DNA of 64,000 nt from Aureococcus anophagefferens (taxonomy: Eukaryota; Sar; Pelagophyceae; Pelagomonadales; Pelagomonadaceae), in NCBI RefSeq assembly GCF_000186865.1, contig NW_008705562.1:516981-580980 (forward strand), given 5' to 3'. The notes beneath the pieces are model-generated. The model saw only the letters and a program-made list of their open reading frames with translations, was not told where the DNA came from and ran no database searches. A program made the position numbers and the translations under genes. How positions within the stretch are numbered: position 1 is the stretch's first letter; every line of letters starts with the position of its first letter. Below are positions 3,701 through 64,000 of the stretch, one piece after another.

Positions 3701-4939
3701 GAGCCAGAGGGCCCCGTCGAGGCCGCCGACCTCGCCGGCCGGCGGCGACGGCCCGCACGCGTCGCGCGCGGCGTCCGCGATGGCGTCCCGCGCGGGCGCG
3801 GACGCCCCGAGCAGGTCCGCGCCGGCGAGGGGCGGGTAGCACGCTCGTAACGTCCCCAGGGCGTCGCCGGGCGCCGCCGCGCCGCGCGCGAGGACGCGGT
3901 TCAGAGCCGTTCCCGAGAACCCGAAGAACGACCGCTTCTCGCCCGCGCGCGCCTGAGTGGAAATCTATCTTCAACCCGACTTCAATGTGCGATTATGCGA
4001 CAGTTTCGATGCAAGCGCTTCCGCTGTGCTTCGAGAACTCAACGAGAGCGATCGATCCGTCCAAAAATCAGCCGAATCGACTTCGATTTGATCGAGATAG
4101 AGAGGTTTGAAGTTTTTGCTGGACAGGGCGTTCCACTGGTTGATTTCCACACAGGCGCGCGCCGCGGCCTGCTTCTCGAGCTCCAGCACCGCCGCGACGG
4201 CCGTCGTGAGCGTCCTGTCCGTCGACGCGAGCTCCGCGATATCGAAGCCCGGCACGAGCCCGGCCTGGAGCCGCGACCGGAGCGGCGGGTCGAGCGGTCT
4301 CCCGTCGAACGGCGGGCTCGGCGCCGCGAGCGCGACGACGCGGAAGTTCGGGTGCACGGCCTCGAGCTTCGAGCTCGTCGCGCCGAGCATGCCGCGGAAG
4401 GCGTCGAAGCGCGCCGCGGGCACGAGGAAGCGGCCGTCGTCGAGCGCCATCTCGCGGTTTTCCAGTAAATTGTTCAGCGTCGGCAGCACGTTGCGCTCCG
4501 CCCGCTCCAGGCCGTCCAGAATGAGGACGCCGCCGCGGAGCGCCGCCCGCACGGGCGCGCCGTCGCTCCAGGTCGCCGACCCGCCGCCCACGAGCTCGCG
4601 CCGCTGCCGAAGGTCCGCCTCGGTCGTGTCGGCGGACACGCCGACGTAAAAGGCCTCGGCGCGGATCAGCTCCGCGTAGGCGAAGGCCGCGTGGCGCGCG
4701 CGCGCGCGCTCCGCCGGCGCGCACACGAGCAGCGCGTCCTGGGCCAGCGCGTCCTTCATGGCGAGGAACTCGAGGGTCGGGAGCAGGCGCGCCGGCAGGG
4801 ACTCGACGTAGCCTTCCGGCACGAAGGACCCGCCGGGCCGCAGCGGCACCGTCGCCCGGCCCACGCGCACGCTGTCGACGACGTCCGCCTCGCTCGACAT
4901 GGCGCGCCGGCGCACGGCGCTTGCGGCGAGGCGACGCAT
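701..4939 (-). CDS. VWA8: VWA8-type mitochondrial AAA ATPase with von Willebrand A domain (2 exons)
   Basis: Exons are 4939-4163 and 3952-701, separated by a family B introner; the splice gives a 1342-residue protein. The start at 4939 gives an N-terminus rich in Arg and Ala (MRRLAASAVRRRA), as expected for mitochondrial import. A first AAA module (about residues 20-260) has a degenerate Walker A but keeps the VWA8-typical DTTE-DL-QRRE and ERNVLPTLNNLLENRE signatures. A second has GPRGGGKT near residue 368. A third has GNQGVGKN near 659 and Walker B VLDEADKAP near 720. The C-terminal VWA domain carries the MIDAS motif DVSGS near 1132. The family is a dynein-related mitochondrial-matrix ATPase of poorly known function. 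The human protein is about 1900 residues, so this one is compact. It follows the ammonium transporter head-to-tail with a 126-bp gap. Confidence 0.9.
3953..4154 (-). mobile_element. Introner element, family B, in VWA8-type gene
   Basis: A 202-bp element lies between two copies of GCGCGCGC (3945-3952 and 4155-4162). Its ends are imperfect inverted repeats (CTGTGTGGAAATC against CTGAGTGGAAATC). Intron 4162-3953 starts with the GC of the duplication and ends with the CAG of the element. Removing it restores a continuous reading frame. The copy is in the commoner orientation relative to its gene. Confidence 0.92.
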
Positions 4940-5065
4940 CGGTGAGGGCGAGGAAGGCTGTATTTCTGCTTCATCAACTTGAGGCAAAGGTGAACGCCGT
5001 ATGCGTCCCCGGGTCTGCCGCGGTCTTACCGCCCGGCGCGGTCCGCGCCGGCCGGCGGGCACGTC

Positions 5066-6774
5066 CTAGGCCTCGGTCCCCGCGGGCACCTGCGCGGCGG
5101 ACATCTCGAGGTCCGTGAGCACGGAGCCGCCGTGTTTCGAGTCGTCCATGCCCATGGCCTCCTCCTCCGGGCTGCAGCGGATGCCGATGGTCAGGTGCAT
5201 GGCCGTGAAGAGGAGCGTCATGGTGCCGCCGACCCAGGCGATGATGAAGAGGACGAAGAGGCACGCGCTCCCGAGCGCGCCGCCGTCGCCGCCGTAGAAG
5301 ACGCCCGCGCACTCCGACGCGCGGTCGTCGTCGCTGTAGTAGGCGATCTTGTAGTAGTACTCCGTGGCGAAGAGGGACGCCGCGATGACGCCCCACATGC
5401 CGCAGGCGCCGTGAACCGGAAAAGCGTCGACGACGTCGTCGATGCCGAGGAAGACGAGCGACTTGGACGCGCCGAGGTACACGGGCGCCTGGGCAGCAAA
5501 AGGGTGATTCAACGTCGCTTCAACGTGAGTGTTCCGCGCGCGCGCGTTCCCGAAAAAAACATCCACGCTTCGAGACCGTTCCGAGAGATGATCGCTCGTC
5601 CAAAAATCAGCCGAAACGAGTGGAAAACGGCCTTGATATGAGCCTTTGAAGTTGGGAATTTCGCTCTCTTTTGCTGCCCTGACAGGCGCGGCGATGAGCC
5701 CGATGACGAACGCGCCCCACAGGTTCACCACGGGGCAGGGCGCCGTGATGGACACGAGGCCCGCGAGGATGCCGTTGTTCGCGTAGGCCGTGTCGATGAC
5801 GTGGTCGACGAGGTAGCCTAAAAACGTCGTCGCGAGGCAGCCCGTCGCCGCGGAGATCGTCGTCGTCATCATGACGTGCGCGGCGAGCCCGCCGTAGCCC
5901 GTGATCGCCAGCGTCGAGACGCCGTTGAAGCCGTACCAGCCGACCCAGAGCATGAGCACGCCCAGGGTCTGGTAGACGACGGACTGCTGGGGCAGCCCGC
6001 GCTTCCAGTCCGTCCGCGGGCCGACCATCTTCGCCGCGACGAGCGCGGCGACGCCGCCGGTCATGTGGACGACGCCGGACCCGGCGAAGTCGATGACGCC
6101 GCAGCCCCCCACGAGCTTGGACGACCGCCAGGGGCTCAGCTTCCCGGACCCGTCCCAGCCCATGTGCACGCAGACCGGATATATAAAACCCGTGATCACG
6201 CACGAGTAGCAGACGTAGGCGCCGAACTTGCAGCGCTCCGCGACGGCCCCGGACACGATCGTCGCCGCCGCGCCCGCGAAGGCCCACTGGAAGAGCCAGA
6301 AGGCCTTGGCGTACGTCTTGCCGTCCGCGGACATCGTCAGCGGGCTGCCGCTGTTGCCCTCGTAGAAGTAGCCGCTCTTGCCCAGGAAGCCGTTGTTGCC
6401 CGTCTTCGGGAAGTTGTCGTCGCCGAAGGCGATGCCGTAGCCGAAGAACCACCAGAAGATGGCCGCGATGGACGCGTCGAAGACGTTCTTGATCAAAATG
6501 TTCTTCGTGTTCTTGAGCTGCACGGACCCGACCTCGAGCATGGCGAAGCCCGCCTACGAAAAAACGCCTCCGCACCGGCGCGCGACACATCGACGCGGCG
6601 CAACCGCGCCTGCATGAAGAAGACGAGCACCATGCCGAAGAGCAGCCAGAAGGCGTTGGCGTCGGCAGCCGACAGGTAGACGGGCGCGTCGTCGTCGACG
6701 CCGTGGTTGCCCTCGAGCGCGGCGATGCGGGCCGTCAGCGCGAGGATCGTGTCGTCGTCGGCGGACACCCCCAT
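5066..6774 (-). CDS. AMT: Ammonium transporter (Amt family), 3 exons
   Basis: Exons 6774-6610, 6553-5690 and 5488-5066 splice to a 483-residue polytopic membrane protein. It carries ammonium (as NH4+ or NH3) across the plasma membrane for nitrogen assimilation. Family signatures include FFMQAGFAMLEVG near the N-terminus, DFAGSGVVHMTGG in the middle, and FLGIDDVVDAFPVHGACG near the C-terminal third with the conserved pore histidine. About eleven hydrophobic segments are visible. Intron 6609-6554 is only 56 bp with a GC donor and TAG acceptor, and joins ...FFMQ to AGFAM... exactly. The second intron is a family A introner inside the sequence encoding AAPVYLGASK. A start at 6774 (MGVSADDD) is preferred over upstream non-ATG codons. 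It lies upstream of the VWA8-type gene on the same strand; no functional link is implied. Confidence 0.95.
5489..5681 (-). mobile_element. Introner element, family A, in ammonium transporter gene
   Basis: The 193-bp element has termini CAGGGCAGCAAAAG and, inverted, CTGGGCAGCAAAAG. It is flanked by the 8-bp duplication GCGCCTGT (left) and GCGCCCGT (right), with one mismatch. Splicing 5689-5489 as a GC-AG intron restores the invariant Amt sequence AAPVYLG. The core TTCGGCTGATTTTTGGACGA is present. Confidence 0.95.
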
Positions 6775-6951
6775 GGTCGGCGCCGCGGAACTGTGCCTGT
6801 GGTGGGAAAGCGCGCCAGCCCCGCTCGGCACGATCACGTTTTTTCGGCCGCAGATCGTCCGGCCGACGGTGCCGAGATACGGATGGACGTGCACTTAAGC
6901 TTCCGAGTCGCGGCGCCGCGTCGCGACGCGCAAACGGAGCCTAATAAAGTG

Positions 6952-9219: not shown

Positions 9220-9267
<48 letters not shown>

Positions 9268-9952: not shown

Positions 9953-11040
9953 CTAGCCGTTTTCGAAGGCCCAGTTCGTGATGAGCGAGATGCGCTTCGT
10001 GCTGAACTGGGGGCGCTTCGTCTCCGCGATGTCGAGGTGGCTCTGGGCCATGGCGCGCGTGGCGATGGACCGCTTCTCGAACAACGTCTGGCGGGAGCCG
10101 CCGTGCGTGTCCGGGTAGAAGTTCGTCGGCGGCGGCGCCTGGGGAACGAGGGCGATTCGACGACGCTTCAACGCGCGCGTTCCAGGGAAAACGCTTCGAG
10201 ACCGTTCCGAGAGCTGATCGCTCGTCCAAACATCAGCCGAAACGAGTGGAACGCGGCCGAGCCTTTGAAGTCGGGAACGTCGCGCGCGTTTCCCGCGCCG
10301 GGCGGCGCCTCGGGCACGGCGTCGGACATGCACACGGTCATGTCGTAGGAGCCGTGGTTGATGAGGCGCTTCTCCTTCATGTTGAGCTTGCACAACGAAT
10401 AGTTGAAGCTCGGGTTCGTCGCGAGGCGCTCCGCGTTCTCCTCCGCCGCGGCGGAGCCCGGCCGCGCCGTCCACTGCGACCCGTACAAATGCGCGTCGCG
10501 CTGGTGGTTCCGGAAGAACTGGGACGCGAGGGTCTTGCGCCCCCGCGTGCGCTGCACGGGGCTCAGCTGGCCCGTGCCCAGCGCGTCGAGCGCCTTGCTA
10601 ATTTTGTAGTCGTCGTGGCTCACCTCGCCGTCGCCGTCCAAATCGTAGGACCAGTGGGGCACGTTGACGCCCCTCAGCTTCTTCTTGAACTCGGACCGCG
10701 TGCGGCTCCGAGGCATGTTGTTCGACTCGGGGTCGAGCAGCAGCGTGCGCAGCGGCAGCTTCTTGCTCATGACGGGCCGGCTGAACGCCGTCGTGCCGAA
10801 GGACGGCTCCGACGCGGACCGGCCGAGCGGCCGGCCACCGAGGCTGCCCGTGCTCGGCCGCGGGGGCGTCACGAGCGCGGCGACGGCCTTGGTCACGGCC
10901 GCGACCCGCCCGGGCGTGCACCCGGCGCTCTCGCGGAGCCGCGAGCTACTCAGCACCATGCTCGCCGTCGACGGGCGGATGCCCTCGCCGGACGACGACA
11001 CGCGGTTCGTCCGCCCCGTCGACACCCGCGACGACGGCAT
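9953..11040 (-). CDS. EF-hand protein, about 305 aa (2 exons)
   Basis: Exons 11040-10309 and 10138-9953 join to 305 residues. The first third is Ser/Arg-rich and probably disordered. A single EF-hand loop (DLDGDGEVSHDD) lies near residue 130, so calcium binding is likely. The C-terminal half (FNYSLCKLNMKEKRLINHGSYD, then a segment ending ITNWAFENG) looks conserved in pattern but I do not recognise the family; it could be a cytoskeletal or flagellar protein. ATG 11040 is used because upstream in-frame codons are not ATG. The single intron is a diverged family A introner. Confidence 0.75.
10139..10300 (-). mobile_element. Introner element, family A (diverged, short), in EF-hand gene
   Basis: The 162-bp copy is flanked by perfect GCGCCGCC duplications (10131-10138 and 10301-10308). 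It keeps the family A core with one change (TGATGTTTGGACGA) but its inverted ends are eroded to CGGCGCGGGAA against CTGGGGAACG. Intron 10308-10139 is GC-AG and restores PEAPPPTNF in the protein. Confidence 0.88.
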
Positions 11041-11180
11041 GGCCACGCCCACCGGGCACGACGGACGCACCTACCACGCCCGCCGGCCTACCGCATGGGC
11101 GACCGACGCCACAAGCTATCAACGCGAGGGCTGCTCTCCGACGCGACAACGATGCGTGGATATCGAGGTGTTTTATGTAA

Positions 11181-12728: not shown

Positions 12729-12732
12729 CATG

Positions 12733-14382: not shown

Positions 14383-15846
14383 CTACGCATCCGGCGCCGA
14401 CGGGCGGTCCCTCACCCGCCTCCAGCAGGCCCCGCCGCGCCTCCGTTCGCAGCGCGCGGCCGTCGCGGCCGGCGGCGGCGCCTCGCACGTCGCGGCCGCG
14501 GCGCCGCAGGGCGGCCAGAGGGCGAGCGCGTCGACCTGCTTGCGCGTGGCGCGCCAGGGGAAGGCGTCGCGGAAGTAGGGGACGAGGTCGACGACGGTGG
14601 CGTCGACCGCGGACGCCGAGGCGACGCGCGGGTCCTCGGCCGCGTAGTTGACGCGGACGTAGGCCTCGAGGCCGGAGTTGAACATGAGCAGCGCCGGCGC
14701 GAAGGTGCCTGGGCCGAAATCAAATCTTCAACCCGACTTCAATGTGAGCGTATGCGACCGTTTCGACGCAAGGCTTTCTGCTCTGCTTCGAGAACTCGAC
14801 GAGAGCGATCGATTCGTCCAAAAGTCAGCCGAATCGACTTCGATTTGACCGAGCTAGAGAGGTTTGAAGTTTGGCTGGAATAACCCAACCAGTGGTCGAT
14901 TTCGGCACAGGAACGTGCCGACGCCGTAGACCACGCGCCGCGCGTTGACGAGCTGGGCGACGTCGTCGGCGAGCGCCGACGGGGCCCAGTCGGCCGCCGG
15001 GTAGCGGCGGAGGAGCTCGTCGACGACGGGGTTCCGGTCCTCGGAGACGAGGCGGATTCTGCCGAAGCCGCCGCCGTCGAGCGCGTCGGCGTAGTAGGAC
15101 ACGGGCGGCGGCGCGTAGTGGGTCTGGTCGTGCACGCCGAAGACGTCGCCGCCGCGCACGTGGACGTGGACGTCGTAGCCCCGCGCGGTCGCCGCGGTCG
15201 GGCCCGCGTACGCGCGTCGGAGGACCGCGAGGACCGCGTCGCGCGTCGGCGACGCGCGCGCGTCCATGGACGGCGTCGCCAGGTTCCAGAAGCTGTCCCG
15301 GAAGGGGCGGCGGCGGCGCCGGCGGGCGTCGCCGCGCGGCCGCACCGGCGCGGCGCGGAGCCGCCCCCCGGTCCGCGACGCGTTGAGGAACTTGGCTTCG
15401 AGGTCCCCGGGCGCGGCGCAGGCGCAGCCGTGCTCGACGGCGAAGCTCAGGCAGTTGGCCACCTGGAGGAGCGCGTTGCCGAGGCGGCCCGTCCAGCGGC
15501 CGATCTCCAGGTCGCGGCCCGCGGCGCACGCGCGCGTCGCGTTCGCGCGCCGCGCCGCCGGGTCCCCCCGCTCGCCGTCGCCCTCGCCGTCGGGCAGGCC
15601 CAGCGCACCGCGGAGCGCCGCCTGCGCGGCCGTGGACCGCTTGGCCTTCTTGCAGCGGGCGATGCAGCGCGGGCCCGTCCGGAGGGCGCGGCACGTGTCG
15701 GAGCAGCTCGAGGCCATGGCCGACCGGACGCGCTCGTCCGCCGCCAGCGCCGCGCTCGTCGGCGCGGCGGCGGGAGCGGCGCGGTAGGCCGCGAACGACG
15801 CGAAAGCGCCGGCGGCGACGGCGAGCGCGCGCCGCCAATGGCGCAT
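14383..15846 (-). CDS. Fucosyltransferase-like type II membrane protein, 417 aa (2 exons)
   Basis: Exons 15846-14919 and 14708-14383 join to 417 residues. An N-terminal signal anchor (residues about 6-25) follows MRHWRR. The luminal part has GRWTGRLGNALLQVANCLSFA, then VHVRGGDVF and a HYAPPPVSYYADAL motif. That combination is the donor-binding pattern of alpha-1,2/alpha-1,6 fucosyltransferase folds (GT11/GT23-like). RLVSEDRNPVVDELL and GVGTFAPALLMFNSG follow, the last being created by splicing of a family B introner. A Golgi role in glycan fucosylation is likely. Cysteines are paired before the catalytic region (CSDTCRAL, CIARCKK). The start at 15846 leaves a 161-bp divergent promoter shared with eIF1. 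Confidence 0.75.
14709..14910 (-). mobile_element. Introner element, family B, in fucosyltransferase-like gene
   Basis: The 202-bp copy has inverted ends CTGTGCCGAAATC and CTGGGCCGAAATC. Its flanks are GCACGTTC (left) and GCACCTTC (right), an 8-bp duplication with one mismatch. Splicing 14918-14709 (GC-AG) restores VYGVGTFAPALLM. The core reads TTCGGCTGACTTTTGGACGA. Confidence 0.93.
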
Positions 15847-16676: not shown

Positions 16677-17836
16677 TTACGCGCGCTTCTTGACGAACAT
16701 GGCCCCGTTTGGGACGATGGTGCGGAGCTCGGCCTCCCCGCGGAACTCGTCCCAGAAGAAGTCGTAGGCCGGCGTCGGCGTGTCGAGGACCGTCGCGTTG
16801 GGGTCCTTGGGCGCCCAGCCGTAGTCGTCGAACATCGCGGCGCCGCCCGGGCGGAGGAGCCGCCAGCCGAGGAGTACGTCCGCGAGCGCGGGCATGAGCG
16901 CGTGGGAGCCGTCGACGTAGACGAGGTCGTAGCGCGCCCCGGAGTCGAGGAGCTCGCCGAGCACGCGCGCGGACCGGCCCTTGGTCTTCGAGAGCCGCCG
17001 GCCCGCGTCGTCGACGAGCGCCGCGGTCTGCGCGTCGAAGAGCGCCTCGACGCCGGGCATGCCCGCGTAGGCCTCGCCGTCGAGGGACGCCTCCCAGGCG
17101 TCGACCTGGGCAGGACAAGAGAGATTCAACGTCGCTTCAACGTGAGTGTTCCGCGCGCGCGCGTTCCGGGAAAAGCATCCACGCTTCGAAACCGTTCCGA
17201 GAGATGATCGCTCGTCCAAAAATCAGCCGAAACGAGTGGAAAACGGCCGAGATATGAGCCTTTGAAGTTGGGAATTTCGCTCTCTTGTGCTGCCCCGGCG
17301 TCGACGCAGTGGATCGTCGCGCCGGGGAACAGCGCCGCGAGCACGATCGCGTTCGCGCCCGCGAACGAGCCGACCTCGAGGATGCTCTTCGGCGGCGACT
17401 CCGCGAGCCGGAGGACGTCGAAGGCCTCGAGGTACTTGGCCGCGAAGTGGCTGTTGAGGCCGGGCACGGCCCACATGTACATGCCCGCGTAGTCGATGGC
17501 CTCGCGGACCTCGGCGAAGCGGTCGGGCCAGCCCCGCCGCGCGGCCTCGCGCCGGAACTCGAGCTCGCGACCGCCCGCGGCGTCGACCTCGGACGCCGCG
17601 GACTCGAGGCAGGTCCCCGGCGGGGCGCCGACGTCGTCGCCGAGGCCGCGGCACGTCGCGAGGCCGGCCTCCGCGAGCGTGGCGCCCTCGCCCGCGCCGG
17701 GGCCGTCGAGCAGCCCGCGCCAGCCGCAGCGCACCACCGCGTCCCACCGCACCATGCGGCTCTCCCGCTCTCCGGTCTCGAGGTCGAACATGAAGACCCA
17801 GGTCCAGAGCACGAGGCGGCCGCCGCACGGCACCAT
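16677..17836 (-). CDS. Class I SAM-dependent methyltransferase, 319 aa (2 exons)
   Basis: Exons 17836-17306 and 17105-16677 join to 319 residues. Motif I is SILEVGSFAGANAIVLAALFPGATIHCVDAW, with the acidic ribose-binding residue directly after the introner junction. Downstream come YDLVYVDGSHALMPALADVLLGWRLLRPGG and MFDDYGW, the pattern of the Methyltransf_24/cephalosporin-hydroxylase-like group that often acts on small molecules or sugars. The N-terminal 120 residues are not recognised. The substrate is unknown. The family A introner interrupts the codons for HC|VDAW, within the SAM-binding motif. Confidence 0.8.
17106..17297 (-). mobile_element. Introner element, family A, in methyltransferase gene
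   Basis: The 192-bp copy is flanked by a perfect GTCGACGC duplication (17098-17105 and 17298-17305). The intron 17305-17106 is GT-AG. It is near-identical to the other full-length A copies and in the common orientation. Confidence 0.95.
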
Positions 17837-18025: not shown

Positions 18026-21000
18026 ATGGCATGGCGGCCGTGGGCTGCGTTCTGGGCGCTCGTGGCGTCGTGCGTCGCGGCCTCGGAGCCGTCGGCGCAG
18101 CACGGTGCGCCGCTCCGGAAGAGCGTGCTCGCCGCGGAGCGCGAGCGCGTGGGGCCGGCGCTGCGCGCGCGCATGCTCCGGCCCGGCGGCGGCGAGGTGC
18201 CCGCGCGGACCGTCGAGTACCTCCAGCTGCGGCCGGAGCGGCGGCGCGAGCTCGAGGATGGCACGGCGGCGCCGAGCGCGCTGCCGACGCCGGCGCCGAG
18301 CGCCCTGCCCAGCGCGTCGTCGGAGCCGTCGCCGCGGCCGAGCACGGCGGCCCCGACGCGCGTGACGCTCGCGCCGTCGCCGCGGGACTGCACGCTCGGC
18401 TTCTGCCCGCAGCCGACGGCGGCGCCGTCGGGCGCGCCGACGCTCGGCGGCGCGCCGACGCTGAGCTGCGGGGAGCGCCGTCCCCGTTAGCTTCCGGGCG
18501 TGTTCCGGACACCGCGCGCGCCCCGCAGGTGAGGACGGCGACGCGAACAACGAGACCGACAGCCGGCTCGTCGGCTGCGCGGGCTACACGGACGCGACGG
18601 CCTGCGGCCTCTTCGACACGGACGCCTTCCGCGCCGACGAGCTCTGCTGCGTCTGCGCCGCGGCGGCCGCGGCGCGCGTCTGCGAGGACTGCGACGCGTA
18701 CGAGGCCTGGGACGGCGAGGGCTGCCCCGTGCGCGACGACGGCACGGCCTTCCTGCCCCTCTTCGACTTCGCGGCGTCCGACTCCGTCGAGGAGCGGCGG
18801 GGCTACGACCCCGTGGGCCTCGTCGACGGCTGCGCGGTCGCGATGACCATCGAGCCGGGCGCGTCCGCGTACTTCAAGCTCTCGGGCTTTTCGAACGCGA
18901 CGGCGTCGGGCGCGCTGCCGACCTTCTTCCTCGAGTGGGACATGTCGAACAACGAGCAGTCCCTGCCCATGTTCTTCTCGCGCCGCGCGGCGTCCCGCGG
19001 CGGAGACGACTCGGGGAGATGTTGACGCGCCGCAGGTTCCGCGACATCCCGCGCTACTACGAGGGCGCCATGTCCCTCTTCTTCGACTGGTACAACTGGC
19101 CCGCGGTGCGTCGTCGCGGGCGGGACGCGCGGAGACGTCGAATTTCGGTAGGTGACGGCCGACGCCTACAACTACGCCGAGTCCGACGAGGGCTTCGACC
19201 TCTACCACTGCCACTCGTGCGGCTACCTCGTGTCGTCCTGCGCCTACTGCTGGGACGAGGACCTGCGGAGCGACGGCTGCGCCCACACGCCCCGCTGCGA
19301 GGCCTCCGGCGACGACCTCTATATGACTGTCTACGGCATGAACTCGCACGTGTCGACGGCCATGGTCAAGCTGTCGCGCGTCGTCATGTACGACTACATC
19401 CGCGAGTCCGAGCTCGAGGCCATCAAGAACCTCTGGCTGGCGACCTGCGAGCCCGTCCTCGCGCCCCCCGCCGCGCGGAACGTCGGGAGCGTGTTTCGGC
19501 CGGGGTTCGGACCGCGAGGATTCGCGGACGCCGCTCGATCGATCCCGCCGCTCCCGCCGCGAAGCGACGCGCCCTCGCCGCGCCGCGGACGGCGACGCCC
19601 CCCCCGCGCAGGCCCGCGAACTGGTCCTGGGTCGAGTACGCGGTCACGGATCTTCCCGAGGTCCAGGGCGAGGCGGACGTCCGGTCCAAGCCCTACTGCG
19701 ACTGGTGGACGGACATGACGCGAGAGGGCCTCGACGGCGTGACGACGGGCGACTGCCTCGCGATCCCGGGCGTCGTCTGCGACGTCGACGGCTACGTGAC
19801 GGATACGTGACGGACATGATCCTGTCGGACTACGGCCTCCGCGGCGAGCTGCCGCCCGTGCTCGGGCTCGCGCGCGCGCGCGTGATCCAGATGGAGAACA
19901 ACCGGCTCAACGGGTCCCTGCCGAGCGACCTCTTCGCGTCGCCGTACCTCGAGGAGCTCGAGTTCTACGGCAACGAGCTCAGCGGGGACCTCGCCTGCCC
20001 GGAGACCGAGGAGCTCCTCCTCGAGGTGCTGGACCTCGAGAAGAACAAGTTCACGGGCCCCGTGCCCGCGTGCTACTTCTCGGACCTGCCGAAGCTCCGC
20101 GTGCTCCTGCTGGGCTACAACGACCTCGACGGCGCGCGCGCCGCGTCCGAAGCCCGAACGCCGGCCCCGCGCGAGGCGCGCCGTCCCCCGCGCAGGCGTG
20201 CTGCCCGAGTCCATGGGCGACGCGGAGCAGCTCGTCTACTTCTCCGCGGAGCGCGCGGGCCTCACGGGCGAGCTGCCGGCGAGCCTCACGGGCTGCCGGT
20301 CCCTCGCCTTCTTCCTCGTGTCCCACAACTTCCTCTCCGGCGAGATCACGTCCGACTTCGTCAACGGGTTCCCGGAGATGTACCACATCGACCTCGACTA
20401 CAACGCCTTCTCCGGCGAGCTGCCCTACCTGAGCTGCTGCCTCAAGAACCTCCACAAGGTGTCCTTCGAGCACAACGCGTTCACGGGCTCCGTCACGGAC
20501 GACCACTTCATCGAGCGCGCCGCGGCGCCCCGGCGCGGGCGCCGGGGCCTCTACGCGGGGTTCCCGACGAGCCTCTGGAGCCTCCGCGCCTGCGCGCCGC
20601 CCCCGCCCCCGCCCCGCCGCGAGCCCCCCCCGCGCGCGCAGGTTCGCCATGGGCCAGAAGCCGTCGGTCGAGTCCGCGCTGAGCCTCGTCGGCAATCGGC
20701 TCTCGGGCCCGCTGCCGTCCATCTTCTACTCCTTCTACTACGACGCGGCGACGACGCTGACCTACTTCTCCGCCAAGGACAACCACTTCCGCTGCAGCGC
20801 GCGGCCCGCGCCCGCCGTCCCGGGGAGCGTCGCGCGACGCCGCCGCGCGCAGGCCCGGACCACGAGAACGAGTACTTCGAGGACTGGGCCCACAACCTCG
20901 CGGAGGACGTCGGCATGTGCGAGCCCGTCGCGACGCCCGGGGCCGTGAGCGCGCCGGACGCGGCGCGCGCCTGTGTGGAAATCAACCAAACTGCAAAATT

Positions 21001-21955
21001 CTCCAGCTCGGTCAAATCGAAGTCGATTCGGCTGATCTTTGGACGGATCGATTGCTCTCATCGAGTTCTCGAAGCACGGCCGAAGAGCCTGTGTCGAAAA
21101 AATCGAATACGTGCACATTCGATTTGCACACAGGCGCGCGCGGGCGACGAGATCACCGTCGCCGGCGAGGCCTTCGCGGCGACGACGGAGAGCACGTGCA
21201 AGTTCACCTACGACGCCGGCGGCTCCGACGTCGTCCCGGCCTTCTTCTACTCGGCGGCCGAGGTCCGCTGTCCGTCGCGCGGCGTCTTTTTGCTTTTCGA
21301 GGCGGTTTTTCGGCCGGCGCGAGTCCGGGCGGCCTCCCGCTCGCGAGCTCCCGGCGGGCCGCCCGGACGAGCCTCTGCGATACGGCGCGGACGCCGTTCG
21401 ATCGAGACCCCGGACCCCGTCGCGCCGTTCCGCAGGCACGCTGCCCGAGGACGCGCCGACGGGCGACTGCGTCGTCGCCGTGGCAAACTACGGCGACGAC
21501 TACAGCGACGCGACGACGCTCGGCGACTACGCCGCCGTGACCTTCGAGATCTACCCGCCCGAGAGCTCGAAGAAGAAGAGCGACGACACGACGGCGATCC
21601 TCGCGCGGGCGCGGCGTCGCGAATCTTCGCCGTTCGAGCGGCCCGCTCGCCGCGGCGCTTCACCGCCGCGTCGCGCCGCCGCGGCAGTTCCGATCTACGC
21701 GCGCTCCTCCCTCGCCACCGCGCCGCGCCGCCGCAGGTCGCGGTCATCATCGCCGCGCTCCTCTTCGCCGCGCTCGTGACAGGCTCCTGCATGTACCTCG
21801 TCGCGCGCGAGAAGGCCGGCAAGCCCCTCTTCATGCCCCTGAGCCAGTCGCCCCTCCACCCCGCGGAGACCGAGCTCGCCCCCCCGGCGTCCGCGTCCGA
21901 GGTCGCCCTCAAGGACGACGTCGACGGCGGCCGCATGTCCACGATCCCGCTGTGA
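18026..21955 (+). CDS. Secreted/receptor-like LRR transmembrane protein, frame broken once
   Basis: The start at 18026 gives a signal peptide (MAWRPWAAFWALVASCVAAS), then a Pro/Ala/Ser-rich linker. Exons I infer: 18026-18467, 18529-18979, 19036-19105, 19152-19450, 19612-20131, 20196-20514, 20642-20796, 20853-20962, 21134-21269, 21436-21602 and 21737-21955. A Cys-rich extracellular region (CDAYEAWDGEGC, YHCHSCGYLVSSCAYC) precedes an LRR N-cap (CLAIPGVVCDVDGYVTD) and about eight plant-type LRRs (LRGELPPVL, LNGSLPSDLF, LTGELPASLTGC). A single membrane span (VIIAALLFAALVTGSCMYL) near the C-terminus is followed by a short tail with no kinase. An 11-bp tandem duplication at 19793-19814 shifts the frame inside exon 5; discounting it, the exon sum is 2877 bp (958 residues). 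Eight of ten introns use GC donors. Confidence 0.75.
19793..19814 (+). repeat. 11-bp tandem duplication causing a frameshift
   Basis: TACGTGACGGA occurs twice in direct succession (19793-19803 and 19804-19814) at the end of the LRR N-cap. The first copy alone leads straight into DMILSDYGLRGELP. The second copy shifts the frame and produces a stop within three codons. No splice sites can remove it. Confidence 0.85.
20971..21133 (+). mobile_element. Introner element, family B (short), in LRR receptor-like gene
   Basis: The 163-bp copy is flanked by GCGCGCGC duplications (20963-20970 and 21134-21141). Ends are CTGTGTGGAAATC and the inverse of CTGTGTGCAAATC. Intron 20963-21133 is GC-AG. The core has TTCGGCTGATCTTTGGACGG and the copy lacks about 40 bp found in other B elements. 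Confidence 0.9.
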
Positions 21956-22256: not shown

Positions 22257-22328
22257 GGGCTTGTGGTCTAGTGGTAGGATTCCTGTTTTGGGTACAGGAG
22301 ATCTCGGGTTCGAACCCCGACTGGCCCC
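22257..22328 (+). tRNA. tRNA-Pro(UGG)
   Basis: The 72-nt sequence folds as a standard cloverleaf. The acceptor 5' strand GGGCTTG pairs with CTGGCCC (one T-T mismatch). The D arm contains GGTCTAGTGGTAGGA (A box). The anticodon stem CCTGT/ACAGG encloses TTTGGGT, giving anticodon TGG. The T arm TCGGG-TTCGAAC-CCCGA is the B box. There is no intron and no encoded CCA. A run of nine T follows immediately and is a pol III terminator. Confidence 0.95.
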
Positions 22329-44153: not shown

Positions 44154-45615
44154 ATGGGGGTGGCGGCGTCGATGAAGGAGGTGGCGGCGTACTGCGAGGG
44201 CGGCGCCGTGGGCGACCGCGACGCCTTCCTCGCCAAGTACGACTTCGACGGGACCAGCCTCATCGCCGAGGGCAACTGCGGCAAGGTCTACGCCTGCGCC
44301 AACAAGGAGACGTCGGAGGCCTGCGCCGTCAAGTGTATTAGTATGGCGGGCATGGACACCTTCGCCCACGAGGAGCTCAGGAACGAGGTGCACCTCCTCA
44401 AGTGCGCGGCGCATCCGGGTATTGTGAAGCTCCACGACTACTACGAGGACGCGGCCGCGGCCGAGGCCTACGTCGTCACGGAGCTCCTCGAGGGCGGCGA
44501 GGTCTTCGACCAGCTCATCGACATGGAGTGCTACGCGGAGAAGGACGCGCGGGCCGTCGTCGCGGCCGTCGTCGACGTCCTCGTGGCGCTCCACGGCGCG
44601 GGCCGGGGCGGGACAAGCGCGCGACATTCCCCGCTTCAAAGGCTCCGATCTCGACCGTCGTCCACTCGTTTCGGCTGATGTTTGGACGAGCGATCATCTC
44701 TCGGAGCGCTCTCGAAGCGTGGACGCTCTTCCTGGAACGCGCGCGCGTCGAAGCGACGTCGAATCGCCCTTTTCCTTGCCCAGGCGCGGGCGTCGCGCAC
44801 CGCGACGTCGAGCTGTCGAACTTCGTGCTGAAGACGCCGAAGGACCAGACGTCCCTCAAGCTCTGCGACTTCGGCTTCGCCGTCCACGAGTCCAACGAGG
44901 CGCTGCTCAAGTACGCCTGCGGGTCGCCGCTCTATTTAGCGCCGGAGATCGTCCACCGCGCGCCGCCGTACGGCACGCCCGTCGACGTCTGGGCCGTCGG
45001 CGTCGCGGCCTACATCCTCCTCAGCGGCGAGCCGCCCTTCGGCGCCGACGCCGACTACGAGGACGAGGTGCTGGAGAGCATCAAGGCGGGCACCAGGGCA
45101 GCACAAGAGAGCGAAATTCCCAACTTCAAAGGCTCCGATCTCGGCCATTTTCCACTCGTTTCGGCTGATTTTTGGACGAGCGATCATCTCTCGGAACGGT
45201 CTCGAAGCGCGGATGCGTTTTCCGTAACGCGCGCGCGCGGAACACTCACGTTGAAGCTACGTTGAATCACTCTTGTGCTGCCCAGGCGGGCGCCGTCGAC
45301 CTCGAGCCGCTCGCGCACGCGTCGGCGGACGCGCGGGACTTCGTCGCCAAGTGCCTCGTGTCGGACCCGGCGGGGCGCCTCACGGCGAAGCAGGCGCTGC
45401 TCCACCCCTGGTTCCTGCAGGCCCACACGGAGGTCGCGACGGCGCACCTCGAGAAAACCGTCGCGTCGTTCCGGAAGAACAAGGACAGCTTCCGCGGCAA
45501 GAAGCGCCTCAAGGCCTCCGCGACGAAGCTCCGGAACACGCTCCGCGCGTCGCGGCCGTCCTTCGCGAAGCTCGACGCCGCCGCCGCGGCGATCCCCGCC
45601 ATCGAGGCCCTCTAG
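44154..45615 (+). CDS. CAMK-like Ser/Thr protein kinase with altered catalytic loop, 357 aa (3 exons)
   Basis: Exons 44154-44595, 44784-45085 and 45286-45615 join to 357 residues, and both introns are introners. The kinase domain fills most of the protein. It has a Gly-loop variant (LIAEGNCGKVYAC), the ACAVK lysine, the HRD loop HRDVELSN, DFGFAVHE, LAPEIV, and DVWAVGVAAYILLSGEPPF. This sequence is closest to CDPK/CAMK kinases. The catalytic Asp and Asn are present, but the Lys two residues after the Asp is Glu. A basic coiled C-terminus (FRKNKDSFRGKKRLKASATKLRNTLR) could bind calmodulin; no EF-hands are present. The N-terminus MGVAAS has a Gly at position 2 that could be myristoylated. Confidence 0.85.
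44604..44783 (+). mobile_element. Introner element, family A (diverged), kinase intron 1
   Basis: The 180-bp copy lies between perfect GCGCGGGC duplications (44596-44603 and 44784-44791). Its left end has drifted to CGGGGCGGGACAAG and its core to TGATGTTTGGACGA. Intron 44596-44783 is GC-AG and restores HGAGVAHRD across the catalytic loop. Confidence 0.9.
45094..45285 (+). mobile_element. Introner element, family A, kinase intron 2
   Basis: The 192-bp copy has ends CAGGGCAGCACAAG and its inverse. Flanks are GCGGGCAC (45086-45093) and GCGGGCGC (45286-45293), with one mismatch. Intron 45086-45285 is GC-AG and joins ESIKA to GAVDLEP. Confidence 0.94.
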
Positions 45616-49043: not shown

Positions 49044-51796
49044 ATGGACGCCTTCTGCCGCCTCTTCGGCTGCCGGAAGCCGCGGGACGACGACGGCGGC
49101 GAGTACGCCGTCGACAACGGGCGGCCCTGCGTCGAGCTCCTGCGCGACGACGAGGTCGCCTCGTCGACGCCCACGCGCTTCTCCGGCGCGGCGAGCCCGC
49201 CCTCGGGCAGCGCGTCGCCCGCGTCCTCTTGTGCGCCGTCGCCGGCGCGCGGGGGCGCGCTCGCGCCGCGGCGATCGCGCGCGCGGCCGCCGCGCGCGCC
49301 CTACGACTCCGCGCGCCGCAGGCACGTCGTCGACGGCGTCGATCCGGCGCGACGAGGACGACAACGGGCGGCCCCGGCCGTCGCCCGGGACGTCCAAGAC
49401 CCTCTTCGATAAAAAACCGACGGCGAAGAAGCAGAAGGTCGACGAGGGCCGGAGCCCCGCGCTGCCCGCCGCGTGGCAACTGGTCGCGCAGCTCAAGGAC
49501 GAGGACGGCGCGCTGACCAAGGACGTCGACCTGGAGATCCTGGGCGGCGGCGACGACGGCGACGACGACGACGAGCTCTTCGAGGACGGCGGCGCGATCA
49601 CGTTTAGTGAGGCGTGGCGGTCCTTCAAGTCGCAGGAGGAGACGGGCTTCGGCAAGCTGCGCGAGTACGTGGCGAAGAACTACGCGGCCCTGCTCCGCAA
49701 GATGCTGAGCCCGCGGCGCGAGCCCTTCGACGGCGCCGCGCTCGGGCCCTCGGGCTTCGAGTTCCGCGGCCGCCGCGTGCGCCGCGACGACTTCGCCGTG
49801 CAGAACGACCGGGGCCTCGAGCTCGCCTGCTCGCTCTGGCGCGACGAGGGCCACGGCGCCCCGGGCGCGCCGCCGAGCCCCGGCGGCTTCCGGCCCCTGA
49901 GCCGCTTCCGGAGCGCGAAGAAGGACCGGAGGTTTTGCGTCTTGTACGTGCACGACGTCGGCGGGAGCCGCCTCGGCGCGCTGAGCTGCCTCGGCGTCGC
50001 TCTCGACGCGGGCGCCGCGGGCTACTGCGCCTTCGACACGACGGCCTGCGGGCGGAGCGGCGGCGCCCACGTGTCCTTCGGCCACTTCGAGCGGTGGGAC
50101 GTCGGCGCCGTGGCGCAGGAGCTCGTGAAGCGGCGCGGCTTCACGGACGTCGTGCTCTGGGGCCGCGGCGCCGGCGCCGTCGCCGCGTTGCTCTACGCGC
50201 GCTTCGCCCAGGCGCCGCCGGCGAAGCGGCGGTCGTCGAAGGAGTCGTGGGAGTGGTCCGACTACTACGGCGGCGGCGGCGGCCCCGCGGGCGCGGGGCC
50301 CGGCGCGTGCGAGTGCGACGAGCACGGCTACCCGAAGCGGCGGCCCCGGGCCGTCGACGTCTTCAGCCAGGGCTCGACGACGCGCGGCGGCATCTCGACC
50401 TGCCCCGACTACGAGGGCGACGAGGCCGCGCGCGCCAAGGCCGCGCGGAGCTTCCTCCGGGGTTTGGAGGTGTCGACGATGACGGTCATGTGGGTCGTGT
50501 CCAAGCCGCCCCTCTACGTCTCCGCCGTCGCCAAGGGCTCGGCGGCCGCGGACTGCGGGTTAGAGGTCGGCGACGTCATCGCCAGGGCAGGAAAAGGGTG
50601 CGAAATTCCCAACTTCAAAGGCTCATATCTCGGTCGTTTCCCACTCGTTTTGGCTGATTTTTGGACGAGTGATCATCTCTCGGAACGGCCTCGAACGTGA
50701 ACGTCTTTCTTTGGAACGCGCGCGCGCGGAATACCCACGTTGAAGCGACGTTGAATCACCCTTTTCCTGCCCAGGTGATCGCGGGGATCGGGAGTTCGAT
50801 GCGGCTGCCGCACACCGCGGACGAGTTCGCGGAGATCCTGCTCAAGCTCGCCGAGCGGCCGCGGCCGGATCTGGTGGTCCACGTCTACCGCGACGCGACG
50901 GCGGGCGAGCTCGCCGCGCCGCCCTGCCCCTACCCGCAGGTCGTGCCCAGGGCAGGAAAAGAGAGCGAAATTCCCAACTTCAAAGGCTCCTCTCTCGGCC
51001 GGTTTCCACTCGTTTCGGCTGATTTTTGGACGAGCGATCATCTCTGGGAACGGTCTCGAAGCGTGGATGCTTTTTCCGGAACGCGCGCGCGGAAAACTCT
51101 TGTGAAGCGACGTTGAATCTCTCTTTTCCTGCCCAGGTCGTGCCCGCGGGGCTCGTCCTCGACTGCGCCGTCGACTCGCCGTCCGCGGTCGTCGACGCGC
51201 TCAAGGCCCACGCCCTCGAGCGCGAGCCCGTGCTGGTGACGCTCCTCGAGCCCGTGCTGAGCTCGGCGCTGGACATTTTGTACCACAGCATCCAGAAGCG
51301 CGCGAACTTCGACCCGACGGCGATCAAGGGCACGGACGTCGCGGCGGCCGTGCGCAACGTGCCCGCGCTCTTCGCCGTCAACGACTTCTCCGACCTCGAC
51401 CGGGGCATCCCGAAGCTCGCCGCGCTGACGTCCACGGTCTACGACGCCTACAAGGGCGGCGCGAAGAGCCTCGTCCGCTACAACAGCCCGCTCCGGCTCG
51501 CGCTCCGCGGCACGCGCGTCGCGCCGGGTCCCCGTCCTTCTTTTCCGTCTCCCACGCCCGTTTCTTCCCGTAGGCTCGACGCCATGTCGTCCAAGTTCCT
51601 CAACAAGGCCTTCGTCTTCCTCCAGGGCCTCGACGGCTTCGAGCCCGTGCCGACGACGGCCGCGGGCGCCGGCGGCGCGGCCATGCCCCGCTGGGTCGTC
51701 ACGACGCGGCCCTGGGCCCAGACCGAGGCGGAGCAGACCATCGACGACTACGAGAGCGCCCAGATCGTCTTCGACCAGGGCGGCCAGGGCTCCTGA
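49044..51796 (+). CDS. Alpha/beta-hydrolase-like and PDZ protein lacking the catalytic Ser, 727 aa (5 exons)
   Basis: Exons 49044-49209, 49322-50574, 50775-50939, 51137-51513 and 51574-51796 join to 727 residues. An acidic, disordered N-terminus precedes a domain resembling ABHD17-type alpha/beta hydrolases (CVLYVHDVGGSRLGAL, YCAFDTTACGRSGG, FTDVVLWGRGAGAVAALLYA). In active relatives the elbow is LWGRSMGA; here Ser is replaced by Gly. A PDZ-like module (PPLYVSAVAKGSAAADCGLEV then GDVIAGIG) follows and is completed by splicing of an introner. The C-terminal part is mixed alpha/beta with FVFLQGLDGFEPVPT. Two family A introners lie only 165 bp apart. The other introns are 112 and 60 bp with GC donors. 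It may be a binding or scaffold protein rather than an enzyme. Confidence 0.75.
50583..50774 (+). mobile_element. Introner element, family A, in hydrolase/PDZ gene (first)
   Basis: The 192-bp copy lies between GTCATCGC (50575-50582) and GTGATCGC (50775-50782), an 8-bp duplication with one mismatch. Ends are CAGGGCAGGAAAAG and its inverse. Intron 50575-50774 is GT-AG and joins LEVGD to VIAGIG in the PDZ core. Confidence 0.95.
50948..51136 (+). mobile_element. Introner element, family A, in hydrolase/PDZ gene (second)
   Basis: The 189-bp copy is flanked by perfect GTCGTGCC duplications (50940-50947 and 51137-51144). Intron 50940-51136 is GT-AG. It has the same orientation as the first copy in this gene but several different substitutions, so they are separate insertions rather than a local duplication. 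Confidence 0.95.
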
Positions 51797-54114: not shown

Positions 54115-54123
54115 GTCGCCCGT

Positions 54124-59229: not shown

Positions 59230-62200
59230 CTACTCCTTACTCGCGGCCTGGGCCTGCTGGTACCAGGCCGCCCGCCGGAGGATGCAGTAGTGGCGCTTCG
59301 CCTTGCCGAGGCGCTCCGAGAGGCGGAAGTCCGCGCCGCCGTAGCCGCGCGCGGCGGACAGCTCCGCGACGATGGGCCGGCCGCCGGCCTCGAGTATGCC
59401 GTTGTCCGTGAGGTTCAGCTCGCGGAGGGCCTCGTTGTGCGTCAGCGCCGGCCGGAAGGCGAGGAGCGCGAGGGACACGAACTTGCCCCGCTCGCCGACG
59501 ACCCAGGGCGCCGTGACGCCGCAGAGCTGGTTCCGCTGGAGATCCAGGCGCTGGAGCGTCGCGTTGACGCGGAGCGCGTCGCCGAGCGCCAGCACGCCGT
59601 CGGCGCTGTGGCTGCCCCAGCCCTGGGGCGACACGTCGCAGACCTCGTTCCGCGCGAGCTTGAGCTCCGTGAGCGCCGCGTTGCGCCGGAGGCCCTCGGA
59701 GAGCGCGCGGAGGCCCTGGGCCTCGACGTGGGACTCGCTCAGGTTGATGGACGTCAGGCCCGTGTTCTTCTTCAGCGCCTCGCCCAACGCCGCGAGGCCC
59801 GCGTTCGGCGGGAGCCGCGCGGCGCCCGCGTCGTCGTCGCGGCTCTCCCGCTTCGCCGTCAGCATGCCGAAGCCCGCGCGGTACGCGTAGGCCTCGGCGG
59901 ACAGCGCCCCGGCGGACGCGTCCCGCGCCAGGGCGTGGGGCGCGCTCGCCGCCAGCTCCCGCACGCCGTCGGCGAAGTTGTTGCCGGACAGGTCTAAAGC
60001 CGCGAGGTGCACGTTGTCCGGCAAGCAGACGGCGAGCCGCGCGAGCATCGCGCCGTCTAAACCGCAGGTCCGCAGGTCCATCTTCACGAGCGTCGGCGCG
60101 ATGACGTCACCGGCCGCGAGGGCCGCCGTCGCCGGGTCGACGACCGCGGCGATTAACGAGATGTCGCGGACGTTGATGTTGACTCTTCTCAAACTGAGGT
60201 CCGCGGCCGCGTCGCCGGCCGCGAGGCGGAAGCGGCGGCACGCGCGCTGCACGCGGCCGGCGGGCGACGCTAACGCCGCGGCGCGCTCCGCCGACGTGAC
60301 CATGTGGAGCACGACGTCGACCATGCCCAGCGGCGCGACGTAGGCCTCCTGGTGGACGTCGTCGAGCGACGGCCAGCCCGCGTAGTCGCCCGCCCTGATC
60401 TTCGCCGCGGACGCGCGCTGCGACGCGCTCGGGGCCGCCCCGGGCCGCGTCGCGCCCGGCGCCTCGAGGGCGACCCAGCGCCGCCGGCGCGCCTTGTCCG
60501 CGACGGGCTTGAGGGGCAGGAGCGCGACGCCGAGGCACGCGTCGCCGCGCTGTCCCGGCTTCTTCGGCGTGCCCGGCTTCTTCGGCGTGCCCGCTTCCTC
60601 CGCCGGGGGCGCCGCGTTCCAGCAGGCGACCTCTAGTTGGAGGTCGTCCGTGACCTCGTCGGCCTCGGGCAGCTCGACGAGGAACCTGGCAGGAAAAGAG
60701 AGCGAAATTCCCAACTTTGGAGACTGCTATCTCGGTCATTTTCCACTCGTTTCGGCTAATTTTTGGACGAGCGATCATCTCGGAGCGTTCTCGAAGCGTG
60801 GATGCTTTTTCCGAAACGGGCGCGCGCGGAACACTCACGTTGAAGCGAACTTGAATCACTCTTTTCCCGCCCTGACGAGGAACGTCTCCTGGAACTGGGG
60901 CCGCCGCGACGGCGGCGCGGTCCGCGTCCGCGCGCTGTGGACGAGCTGGCTCGGCCCGCCGACGGTCTTGATGGAGACCCAGACGTCGGGCACGGGCGAC
61001 ACTTCCGCGCTCGCCGCGGACGCGGTTTCGCCCCCGTTCGACGCGTCGTCCGCCGCGGGTCGCGCGAGGCCCGTCGGCGTGCCCGGTCTTTTCGAACCGG
61101 ACGGCGTGCCCGCGCGCTGGCGGCTGCCCGGGCGCGCCGCGTTCTCCCGGTCCTCGAGCAGGTCCGGCCGCCGGCCGAGGTTCCGCGCGCGGACGATAGC
61201 GACGCGGATCTCGTTCGGGTCCGCCTCCGGAAACACGTCCTCGTCGAGGAAGTAGTCCGGCGCGAGGGCCGGGTCGTGCACGAGGACGCAGGCGACCTTG
61301 ATCTGCGACGCCTTGTCGTCGCCGGCGACGCGGTTCGCCTCGGGCACGGCCAAAGTGACCCACGACCACGCCGGCGTCGGCACTCGTCGCGCGGCGTCCG
61401 CGAAGCCCTCGGCGTCGCGGTCGCCGCGGAAGGCGTCGCGCGCGTCGAGGACGGCTCTGAGCGGGATCTTCGCCGCGCCGAGCAGCGGCTGCGCGCCGTC
61501 GCCGCCGGCGACCTGGCGGTCGCGGACTTCTACGGTGACCTCCGGTTCCACCTCGCCTCTTTCAATGTCGTGCTCGTCGACGTCGAGGTCCAGGCGCTCG
61601 AACCAGGACGGGTAGAACGTGCCCTCCGTCGTCCGCGTCGCCTTCGCCACGAGCTCGCCGTCGCCGTAGGCTATTGAAGCCGTCGCGAAGACGCGCGCGC
61701 GCGCCTCGTCGTCGGACTTGGCCGCGGCCGGCGGCTTCGAGAACAGCGCCTGCTTCAGGGACGACGCGGCGGAGGCCGCCGGCGCCGCGCGCTTGATCTC
61801 CTCCGTCGACGCCTTGAGGTTGCGCGCGCGCCCCAGGAAGACGAGGAGCCGGTTCCCGCGCCGCGCGGGCCAGTCGACGGCGCCGTCGAGCAGGTCCGGC
61901 TCGAGGCCCGGGTTGTGGCGCCAGCGGAAGAGCAGCTCGACCTGGCCCTTGGGCGCGTGGGCCACGGGCGCGTTGTCGACGGCGCCGGGCTGCTTGAGCG
62001 GGTCGGGCCGCGCGTCCGCGTCCGCCTCGGCCTTGAGCGCGTACCACGATCGGAAGGGCCGCCGGTCCACGAGGCTCGACGCGAGGCGCTCGAGCTTGAC
62101 GCCGCCCATGAAGTCGTTGGCGCTGCGGTCGTCGTGGTCGAAGACGCGGACCCAGAGCGCGTAGTCGTCGCCCGGTTCGACCTCGAACGCGAAGACGCCC

Positions 62201-64000
62201 TTCCACTTGGGCTCGAGCGTCTTGGGCCTCACGGCCGTCCGCGCCTCGCCCGGCCCGACGTTGACGACGGCGTAGGGGTCGCTGGAGCCGCCCTTGGAGA
62301 AGCGGCTCCGGTCCATGATCTCGAGGGACTTGCCGCGGTAGACGGCGACCTGGAGCTCGTTGGGCTGCTTCTCGGGCACGTCTGGGTCGCCCTCTTTAAA
62401 GGGGTCGAAGACGAGCGCCGGGTCGTGCCTCCAGCACAGGACCAGCTCGACGTCGCCGGAGCTCCCGCCGAGCTTGTACCATCTGCGCACGCGGTAGCCG
62501 TCGTGGACCTCGCGGAGGTCGACGTCGGCCGAGCCCATGAAGTCGTTGCCGCTGAGCTCGTCCCAGTCCTCGAGGACGACCGTGAGGACGCCCGGCGGCG
62601 CGTCGTCGTAGTCGAGCTCGTAGGGGCACTGGAACCGCGCGCGGAACAACGGGTTCACGGTCTTCCGGCGCACGTCGGTCTTGAACGAAAACTCGGGCGC
62701 GTTCGCGAGGGTCACGGTGGCGACGGGGTCGCTGCTGCCGCCCTTGGATAAGATATTCCTGTCCATGATCGGCAAATGCCGCGCGCGGACGACGGCGATG
62801 CACAGCTCGTTGCGGGGCTTGCCCGGGTGCGCGTCGGTGCCTTCCCACGGGTCGAACGCGAGCTCGGGGTTGTGGATCCACTTGAGCACGAGCTCGATGG
62901 ACCCGGAGACGGCGTCCTTGGGCCGGTCCGGGTCCGTTTGTAGTTTGAACCACTTGCGGCCCCGGAAGTGGGTCACGTCCCGCAGGTCGACGTCGAAGAC
63001 GCCCATGGAGTCGGGCGCGGACGCGTCGTCGTAGTCCTCGCACCGCGCCCGCAGCACGGGGTGCTCGACCTCCGTGGCCTCGATGGGGAGGCGGAACTCC
63101 TCGTGCCACTGGGGCGCGAGCGTGTTGTTCTTGTAGGTCGACGTCGCGGCCGCGTCCGTGCCCGGCACGGTGAAGACGACGCGCGGGTCCGACGTGCCGC
63201 CCTTCGAGAGCAGGTTCCGGTCCTTGGCGATCAAGCCCTTGCCGCGCACGAGGGCGACCAGAAGCTCGTTGCAGTCCTTGGAGACGCGGTCCTGGACGAC
63301 GGAGCCCAGCACCTGTGTGCAAATCAACCCGTGAGCTGGGACGTCGGGGCCAAACTTCAGAATTCTCTAGCTCGGTCAAATCGAAGTCGATTCGGCTGAT
63401 TTTTGGACGAATCGATTGCTCTCAGCGAGTTCTCGAAGCACGGCGGAAGTGATCGTGTCAAAACATTCGAATACGCGCACATTGAAGTCGGGTTGAAGAT
63501 TTGATTTGCACACAGCCCAGCACGTTGAGCAGCCGCACGGACTGCGCGGCCTTCTTGAGCCGCTGGAGGCCCGTGGGCTTCGCGGGCGCCGCGGGCCCCG
63601 CGCTTCCGAAGGCGCTGAGCACGCGCGCGGACTGGGCCTGCTTCTTGAGCACGCCGAGCTTCGACGGCGGCGGCGCCGCGGCGGCCGCCTCGGGCGACGC
63701 CTCCGCCTCGCGCGCGGCCTCCGCCTCGCGCGCGGCCTCCGCCTCGCGCGCGGCCTCGACGGCGTCGGGGTCTTCGGTGAACTCGAAGGGCTCGTAGAAG
63801 TATTTCGGGTTGTGGCGCCATCTGAAGACGAGCTCGAGGGCGCCGGAGACCGTGTCCTTGGGCTTCTTCGGGTTCGGTTTCAGTTCGAACCAGCCCCGGT
63901 GGATCTGCCGATCGATGAATCGGGACACGTCGACGTCGACCTCGCCCATGTGGTCCGCGGCGCTCAGCAGGTCGTAGTCCTCGCATTTGGCGCGCAGCAC
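59230..64000 (-). CDS. Multi-C2-domain protein with C-terminal LRRs, partial (N-terminus beyond window)
   Basis: Visible exons are 64000-63524, 63312-60884 and 60685-59230, giving 1453 residues; the 5' end lies outside the window. The visible start is the end of a C2 domain, followed by an EAEAAR heptad-repeat linker. Then come at least four more C2-type modules with repeated LSKGGTSDPRVVF, LSKGGSSDPVATV and FSKGGSSDPYAVV loops. Acidic residues lie where C2 domains bind calcium (EDYDDASAPDSMG, EDWDELSGNDFMG, DHDDRSANDFMGG). A VELVLCWRHDPALVFDP motif recurs between modules. The C-terminal 350 residues form ribonuclease-inhibitor-type LRRs (LDLSGNNFADG, INLSESHVEAQG, LKLARNEVCD, LNLTDNGILEAGG). 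It is probably a calcium-dependent membrane-binding scaffold, ferlin/MCTP-like in plan but without a visible membrane anchor. Confidence 0.85.
60686..60875 (-). mobile_element. Introner element, family A, reversed, in C2/LRR gene
   Basis: The 190-bp copy is reversed relative to its gene. Flanks are GTTCCTCG (60678-60685 and 60876-60883), extended to nine matching bases by a further T. One C of the terminal CTGCCC is missing. Intron 60883-60686 is GT-AG and joins QET to FLVELPEAD. Confidence 0.94.
63313..63515 (-). mobile_element. Introner element, family B, reversed, in C2/LRR gene
   Basis: The 203-bp copy has ends CTGTGTGCAAATC at both sides (perfect 13-bp inverted repeat) and a perfect GTGCTGGG duplication (63305-63312 and 63516-63523). 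It is inserted in the opposite orientation to the other three B copies. Intron 63523-63313 is GT-AG. Confidence 0.95.
63680..63755 (-). repeat. 18-bp coding tandem repeat (EAEAAR)
   Basis: GCCTCCGCCTCGCGCGCG repeats about four times on the plus strand, encoding a helical EAEAAR linker between C2 modules. Length variation is likely. Confidence 0.88.

Follow-up and report, generated by a model that had tools for sequence, protein, structure and literature searches.

The 16 short repeated introns in a 64-kb stretch of the Aureococcus anophagefferens genome (the window; bases 516981–580980 of contig 2, in a genome of 49.05 Mb and 86 contigs) are, with high confidence, introners, that is, non-autonomous MITE-like DNA transposons. 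Introners are among the main explanations offered for bursts in which introns are gained. Their presence in A. anophagefferens is already known, and Huff, Zilberman and Roy reportedly dealt with the introner elements of this alga in 2016. The detail added here is that the terminal repeat appears to double as the 3′ splice site.

Inventory and anatomy of the introners

Self-comparison of the window (68–75% GC; strain CCMP1851 is described in the cited passage of PMC11237714 as 49.9 Mb with 70.5% GC) gave one short repeat family and two long ones, each of these two with copies in both orientations. The nine A, four B and three C elements of the original prediction are all present (Table 1); the third C copy has diverged and contains a C-like block in duplicate. 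The three predicted families stand as three repeat sets, but a core of some 53 bp is common to A and B (roughly 80% identical, E 1e-7 to 6e-6), which leaves two unrelated groups: A and B are evidently relatives and C is unrelated to both. The density, also as predicted, is one introner per 4 kb (16 in 64 kb). A copies with an exact left end are about 4.7 times denser in the window (4 in 64 kb) than in the genome (658 in 49.05 Mb).

In every case (16/16), the inferred intron is made up of the element and a single 8-bp copy of the target, with the donor coming from the duplicated target and the AG acceptor from the element tip. The donor is GC in nine and GT in seven, and all 16 introns end in AG. 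The 8-bp target-site duplication (TSD) that had been claimed matches at 8/8 positions in ten copies, 7/8 in five and 6/8 in one, and the inverted ends were found as well. The positions of the splice sites are evident at the level of sequence, as are target duplication, inverted ends, frame restoration and the dispersal of near-identical copies, features that fit the earlier reading of short non-autonomous DNA transposons serving as introns.

Table 1. Introners of the window (positions of the inferred introns, counted from the first base of the window)
Element	Position	Strand	Splice sites	TSD	Frame across junction	Host gene and remarks
B1	3953..4162	-	GC-AG	8/8	same both sides	gene with dynein-type AAA domains (AAA_5)
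A1	5489..5689	-	GC-AG	7/8	same	ammonium transporter gene; Ammonium_transp across junction, E 7.8e-88
A2	10139..10308	-	GC-AG	8/8	same	shortened, divergent
B2	14709..14918	-	GC-AG	7/8	same	no Pfam match
A3	17106..17305	-	GT-AG	8/8	same	methyltransferase gene; Methyltransf_24 across junction; public ORF P0001 uninterrupted
B3	20963..21133	+	GC-AG	8/8	coding scores weak but favour plus	
C3	24990..25100	+	GC-AG	6/8	same	two C1-like blocks, 73% and 83%
A4	32217..32416	+	GT-AG	8/8	same	gene with LRR, IQ and WW domains; body opposite to most A copies
C1	33854..33941	-	GT-AG	8/8	independent calls disagree; in-frame read-through by eye	
C2	37053..37140	-	GC-AG	7/8	same	ion-channel gene (Ion_trans_2, EF-hand)
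A5	44596..44783	+	GC-AG	8/8	same	protein kinase gene; Pkinase across junction, E 4.6e-59; P0011 uninterrupted
A6	45086..45285	+	GC-AG	7/8	same	kinase gene of A5; Pkinase across junction; P0011 uninterrupted
A7	50575..50774	+	GT-AG	7/8	same	PDZ-domain gene; PDZ_6 across junction
A8	50940..51136	+	GT-AG	8/8	same	gene of A7
A9	60686..60883	-	GT-AG	8/8	calls disagree	gene with C2 and LRR; weak C2 across junction, E 1e-4; rarer body orientation, as A4
B4	63313..63523	-	GT-AG	8/8	same	gene with C2 domains; young copy

Proposed mechanism

A transposase supplied from elsewhere would insert the element and thereby duplicate 8 bp of exon. The terminal repeat, read outward, would act as the 3′ splice site, which in A is a run rich in pyrimidines with CAG at its end, and the GT or GC with which the upstream target copy begins would act as the donor. 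Splicing would then take out the element together with one target copy and restore the original mRNA. The inverted arrangement of the terminal repeat allows either end to act as the acceptor when its second base is T; T at both ends would make B usable in two directions, and T at one end would make A a polar element. As the donor is supplied by the target, an exact join is available only where the target begins with GY. Both splicing and cut-and-paste transposition, with a transposase of hAT type, are inferred. On folding 11 of the 16 introns, the terminal inverted repeats (TIRs) pair over 12–16 bases in A and B and over 3–4 in C. RNA structure was rejected as evidence, the folding energies being mostly unremarkable (z −0.5 to −2.8 versus mononucleotide shuffles).

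Frame restoration, host genes and public gene models

The frame test picked the best-scoring strand and frame separately on each side after excision (chance agreement 1 in 6 for each element), using a codon model trained partly on the window itself. Each element had been predicted to lie inside a coding frame. Strand and frame agree across the excised junction in 14 of the 16, but the separate calls disagree for C1 and A9; C1 is in frame through the junction by eye, and a C2 domain bridges the A9 junction, weakly. Retention of the intron would shift the frame or introduce a stop in 13 of the 16 and would be silent for A1, B3 and C3. Pfam domains span six junctions: ammonium transporter (A1), methyltransferase (A3), kinase (A5 and A6), PDZ (A7) and, weakly, C2 (A9). 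Coding predictions on the raw window, with the elements unmarked, stop within a few bases of many elements. All 16 elements would be removed exactly by splicing.

The public ORF P0001 (319 aa, 98% identical) runs uninterrupted across the A3 junction, and P0011 (294 aa, 99%) does so across A5 and A6; the uninterrupted ORFs are only suggestive of splicing. The two target copies of A6 (45086–45093 and 45286–45293) differ by one base. At this position, P0011 has Thr, as encoded by the upstream copy, and the downstream copy encodes Ala, a hint that P0011 represents an intron-free allele, although it may also be a transcript of another allele. Compared with the A5/A6 kinase, the A. anophagefferens proteins P0012, P0013 and P0014 agree in 99, 95 and 89% of aligned residues, respectively, inserts and gaps aside. 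P0012 and P0014 contain the A5 intron in translation, each in a frame of its own, and part of the A6 intron is found in all three proteins. Other assemblies therefore also have these insertions, and introner sequence has been left in the gene models, so that public annotation of this bloom-forming brown-tide alga presents introners as translated protein. The Aureococcus precedent that had been invoked is borne out by these named proteins.

Family A in the genome

A first look at the genome gave 1979 A, 1731 B and 277 C candidates, of which 40 of each were scored; the common core may have placed some matches in both the A and the B set. Patterns for the exact left end of A matched 447 times with tip T and 211 times with tip A, and the reversed-pattern control matched 0 times. 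Introns are common in genomes of this type, and the copies might be ordinary old introns, alike through gene duplication or low complexity, but matches in the hundreds versus none in the control do not suit this explanation; the flanking genes are mutually unrelated by Pfam, and the similarity ends at the 8-bp duplications. We give this explanation almost no credence.

The A sample was non-random, comprising the best A1 matches, the first T-tip and the first A-tip copies, all but one of the nine window copies, and bystanders. Its 98 full-length matches were reduced to 94 by removal of duplicates; A2 lies outside it because the match was too short. The second base from each end, read on the body strand, is T..T in 58, T..C in 9 and A..A in 22 copies (89 of the 94 in total). 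Read inward, the same base is never present at this position in both ends (0/94; 31.6 expected if independent). The unlike second bases leave AG at one end only in the sampled copies.

Four copies without clear tips, A9 among them, were dropped, giving n = 90. The 3′ target copy begins with GC in 50, GT in 39 and GA in 1. The TSD is 8/8 in 71, at least 7/8 in 83 and below 6/8 in 4. The coding call falls on the predicted sense strand in 77 of 90 copies and is antisense in 13; the exact junction outscores as coding both the joins shifted by 1 or 2 bases in 79 and is not best in 11. The antisense calls, the 11 junctions, the poor TSDs (these 4 and 5 of 41 in B) and the frame disagreement of C1 and A9 are evidence against the introner reading.

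The A body is found in both orientations relative to the tips and has evidently been inverted between them at least once. A tree of 93 A rows needs at least 9 polarity changes (20.8 with shuffled labels), of which its well-supported branches force only 1, and a single clade for body orientation is not rejected by the AU test (p 0.159). Repeated inversion was not retained, since one event suffices and several are merely suggested.

Families B and C

The best 40 of the 1731 B matches are all at least 98% identical to B4, which indicates recent movement of the family. The B sample held 41 rows, of which 35 have tips CTG..CAG, with AG at both ends. Removal of 5 rows with a TSD below 6/8 left 36, and in these, GY is available forward only in 18, on both strands in 9, in reverse only in 9 and on neither in 0. 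Among the rows at least 98% identical to B4 (n = 28, counted by hand), the figures are 16 forward, 5 both and 7 reverse; usable donors are thus present in either orientation even in near-identical rows. Most B rows have short flanks, and the orientation result refers to donor availability, not to gene direction. Family B looks able to work whichever way it lands. The tips and TSD of B3 would also permit splicing on the minus strand, at 20971–21141. In C (24 rows), the tips are mainly CAG..TAG and the TSD is at least 7/8 in 18; GY is found at the 3′ target copy in 24/24 (hand count) and at the upstream copy in 20/24.

Spread through RNA, by reverse splicing of an excised intron into another transcript followed by copying to DNA, as proposed for fungal introner-like elements, would account for copies in coding sequence, mostly in sense as judged by the tips (77/90), and for exact splice borders. 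It would not lead one to expect perfect TSDs in 71 of 90 A copies, paired terminal repeats or a family usable both ways, and we regard it as very improbable.

Target choice and selection

Throughout the genome, GY is found beside the acceptor in 442 of the 447 exact-ended T-tip A copies, against a flank background of 19.9%. There are five exceptions to this rule, one without the G and the other four, by subtraction, with G and then a purine. The exception without G (contig 21, region L143, 601–793) resembles B in that both tips of this A copy are of the AG type; it is predicted to be spliceable in reverse with a GT donor, and the flanking sequence is scored as coding on the corresponding strand.

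For the coding test, 119 elements were found and 14 were excluded (11 partial, 3 near ends). All 105 testable elements, in 73 regions, lie within sequence called coding by a crude model whose training data were the same DNA; the model calls non-coding 16.8% of the DNA of those regions and 22.5% of the window. The GC content of the coding calls is 73.5%, versus 63.4% elsewhere.

The context of the target in A (n = 90) is mirror-symmetric, with C at −1 in 46 copies and G at +9 in 45. RC occupies target positions 7–8 in 26 of the 90, versus a background of 22%, and GY is present on one strand only in 27 of 36 B copies. The one-strand GY of both families speaks for splicing and against a symmetric preference for the target. 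B has AG at both ends, A and C have it at one end, and there are young, near-identical copies in which exceptions can be tallied; the families thus provide a clean natural test of aiming versus survival.

As far as distribution is concerned, insertion might be uniform, with purifying selection against unspliceable genic copies alone making the GY rule. The demand for GY on a single strand, as splicing requires, agrees with this, and negative selection on introners has been argued for (PMC9860276). However, under uniform insertion, spacers and old introns should contain numerous copies whose duplications are arbitrary, and what was found is confinement of all tested elements to coding calls, albeit by a crude model, despite the non-coding share of the DNA, and just 5 A copies of 447 in which GY is missing. 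Purging of unspliceable coding insertions alone does not easily explain the pattern, and we consider this account unlikely.

We favour, as the probable account, a transposase that strongly prefers GC-rich coding DNA, followed by selection that clears unspliceable copies. It is in keeping with the mirror-symmetric context, the higher GC of the coding calls and a published bias of introners towards genes and nucleosome linkers (PMC9860276), although the bias would have to be near-complete to leave so few unspliceable copies. Also improbable is that landing itself is coupled to spliceability, in exons only, beside a GY on the coding strand and with the AG tip downstream, for example through a link of transposition to transcription or to the splicing machinery; selection would then be a minor filter.

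Relation to published introners

Introners of A. anophagefferens with TSDs and TIRs are in print (PMC9860276, PMC7789003). As described in the cited passages, they are short and non-autonomous, with TIRs and 8-bp TSDs, and take one splice site from the element and the other from the duplicated target, as do those of the window; no difference was established in this comparison, which was made by description and not family by family. The cited passages of these two papers mention neither the use of B in both directions nor the inverted body seen in part of A nor the almost invariable GY rule; all three may be in Huff 2016. Two-way use of one family is likewise not described in the cited passages of PMC9481584 and PMC12768974. 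The methods given in PMC9860276 allow for insertion in opposite orientation when introns are paired.

In the cited passage of PMC9860276, the family 4 introner of Aureococcus sp. TARA_AOS_82_MAG_00129 carries both splice sites within the element and lengthens the mRNA by 12 bp. It shares the genus and the 8-bp TSD with the window introners, which in contrast take the donor from the target and would restore the mRNA length. The fungal introner-like elements, described in the same source as without TSDs and without TIRs, are also dispersed, near-identical introns; the window introners differ in having both.

Relation to hAT transposons and search for the mobiliser

The CAGGG end of A combined with the 8-bp TSD recalls, by analogy, the hAT superfamily. 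Members of this superfamily make an 8-bp TSD and have a TIR that begins CAG-N-G. The likeness to hAT-type MITEs lies in the TSD (8/8 in 71 of 90 A copies; at least 7/8 in 18 of 24 in C) and in the one A end; the difference lies in the other A tip, CTGGG, and in both B tips, which begin CTG.

In the genome, the Dimer_Tnp_hAT profile gave four weak matches (E 0.001–0.004). Paired A-type ends were not found in 10 kb around three of the four, where one region (L043) has a single unpaired A-type octamer, and two scans of three hAT-match regions gave no convincing pair of TSD and TIR. By Pfam, the long frame of region L041 had no match, and L043 had only one above the cut-off, a zinc finger. DUF4371 had one match, below the cut-off, in the ORF of one of the hAT matches. 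The KDZ profile gave 0 matches, but its control also gave no signal. Around one weak hAT-type match is a repeat of about 5.4 kb, present at 99% identity on contig 1 (L041, 806–6233) and contig 13 (L042, 760–6188); its boundaries lie inside repeats, and a TIR was not found. Viral spread was also rejected: a single 20-base match in IMG/VR is attributed to chance, on a contig whose frames look phage-like, and the B-core pattern had 0 matches there.

The statement in the original prediction that the window holds no transposase agrees with the scan of segments of at least 110 aa (33 shorter segments lay outside it), in which no transposase family was matched by the 35 segments scanned as such, out of 44, or by 10 spliced pieces representing the remaining nine. 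Elsewhere in the genome, the reverse-transcriptase (RVT_1) matches include two with identical scores, both on contig 34 (L001 and L002). The window also contains a tRNA-Pro gene with anticodon TGG, at 22257–22328.
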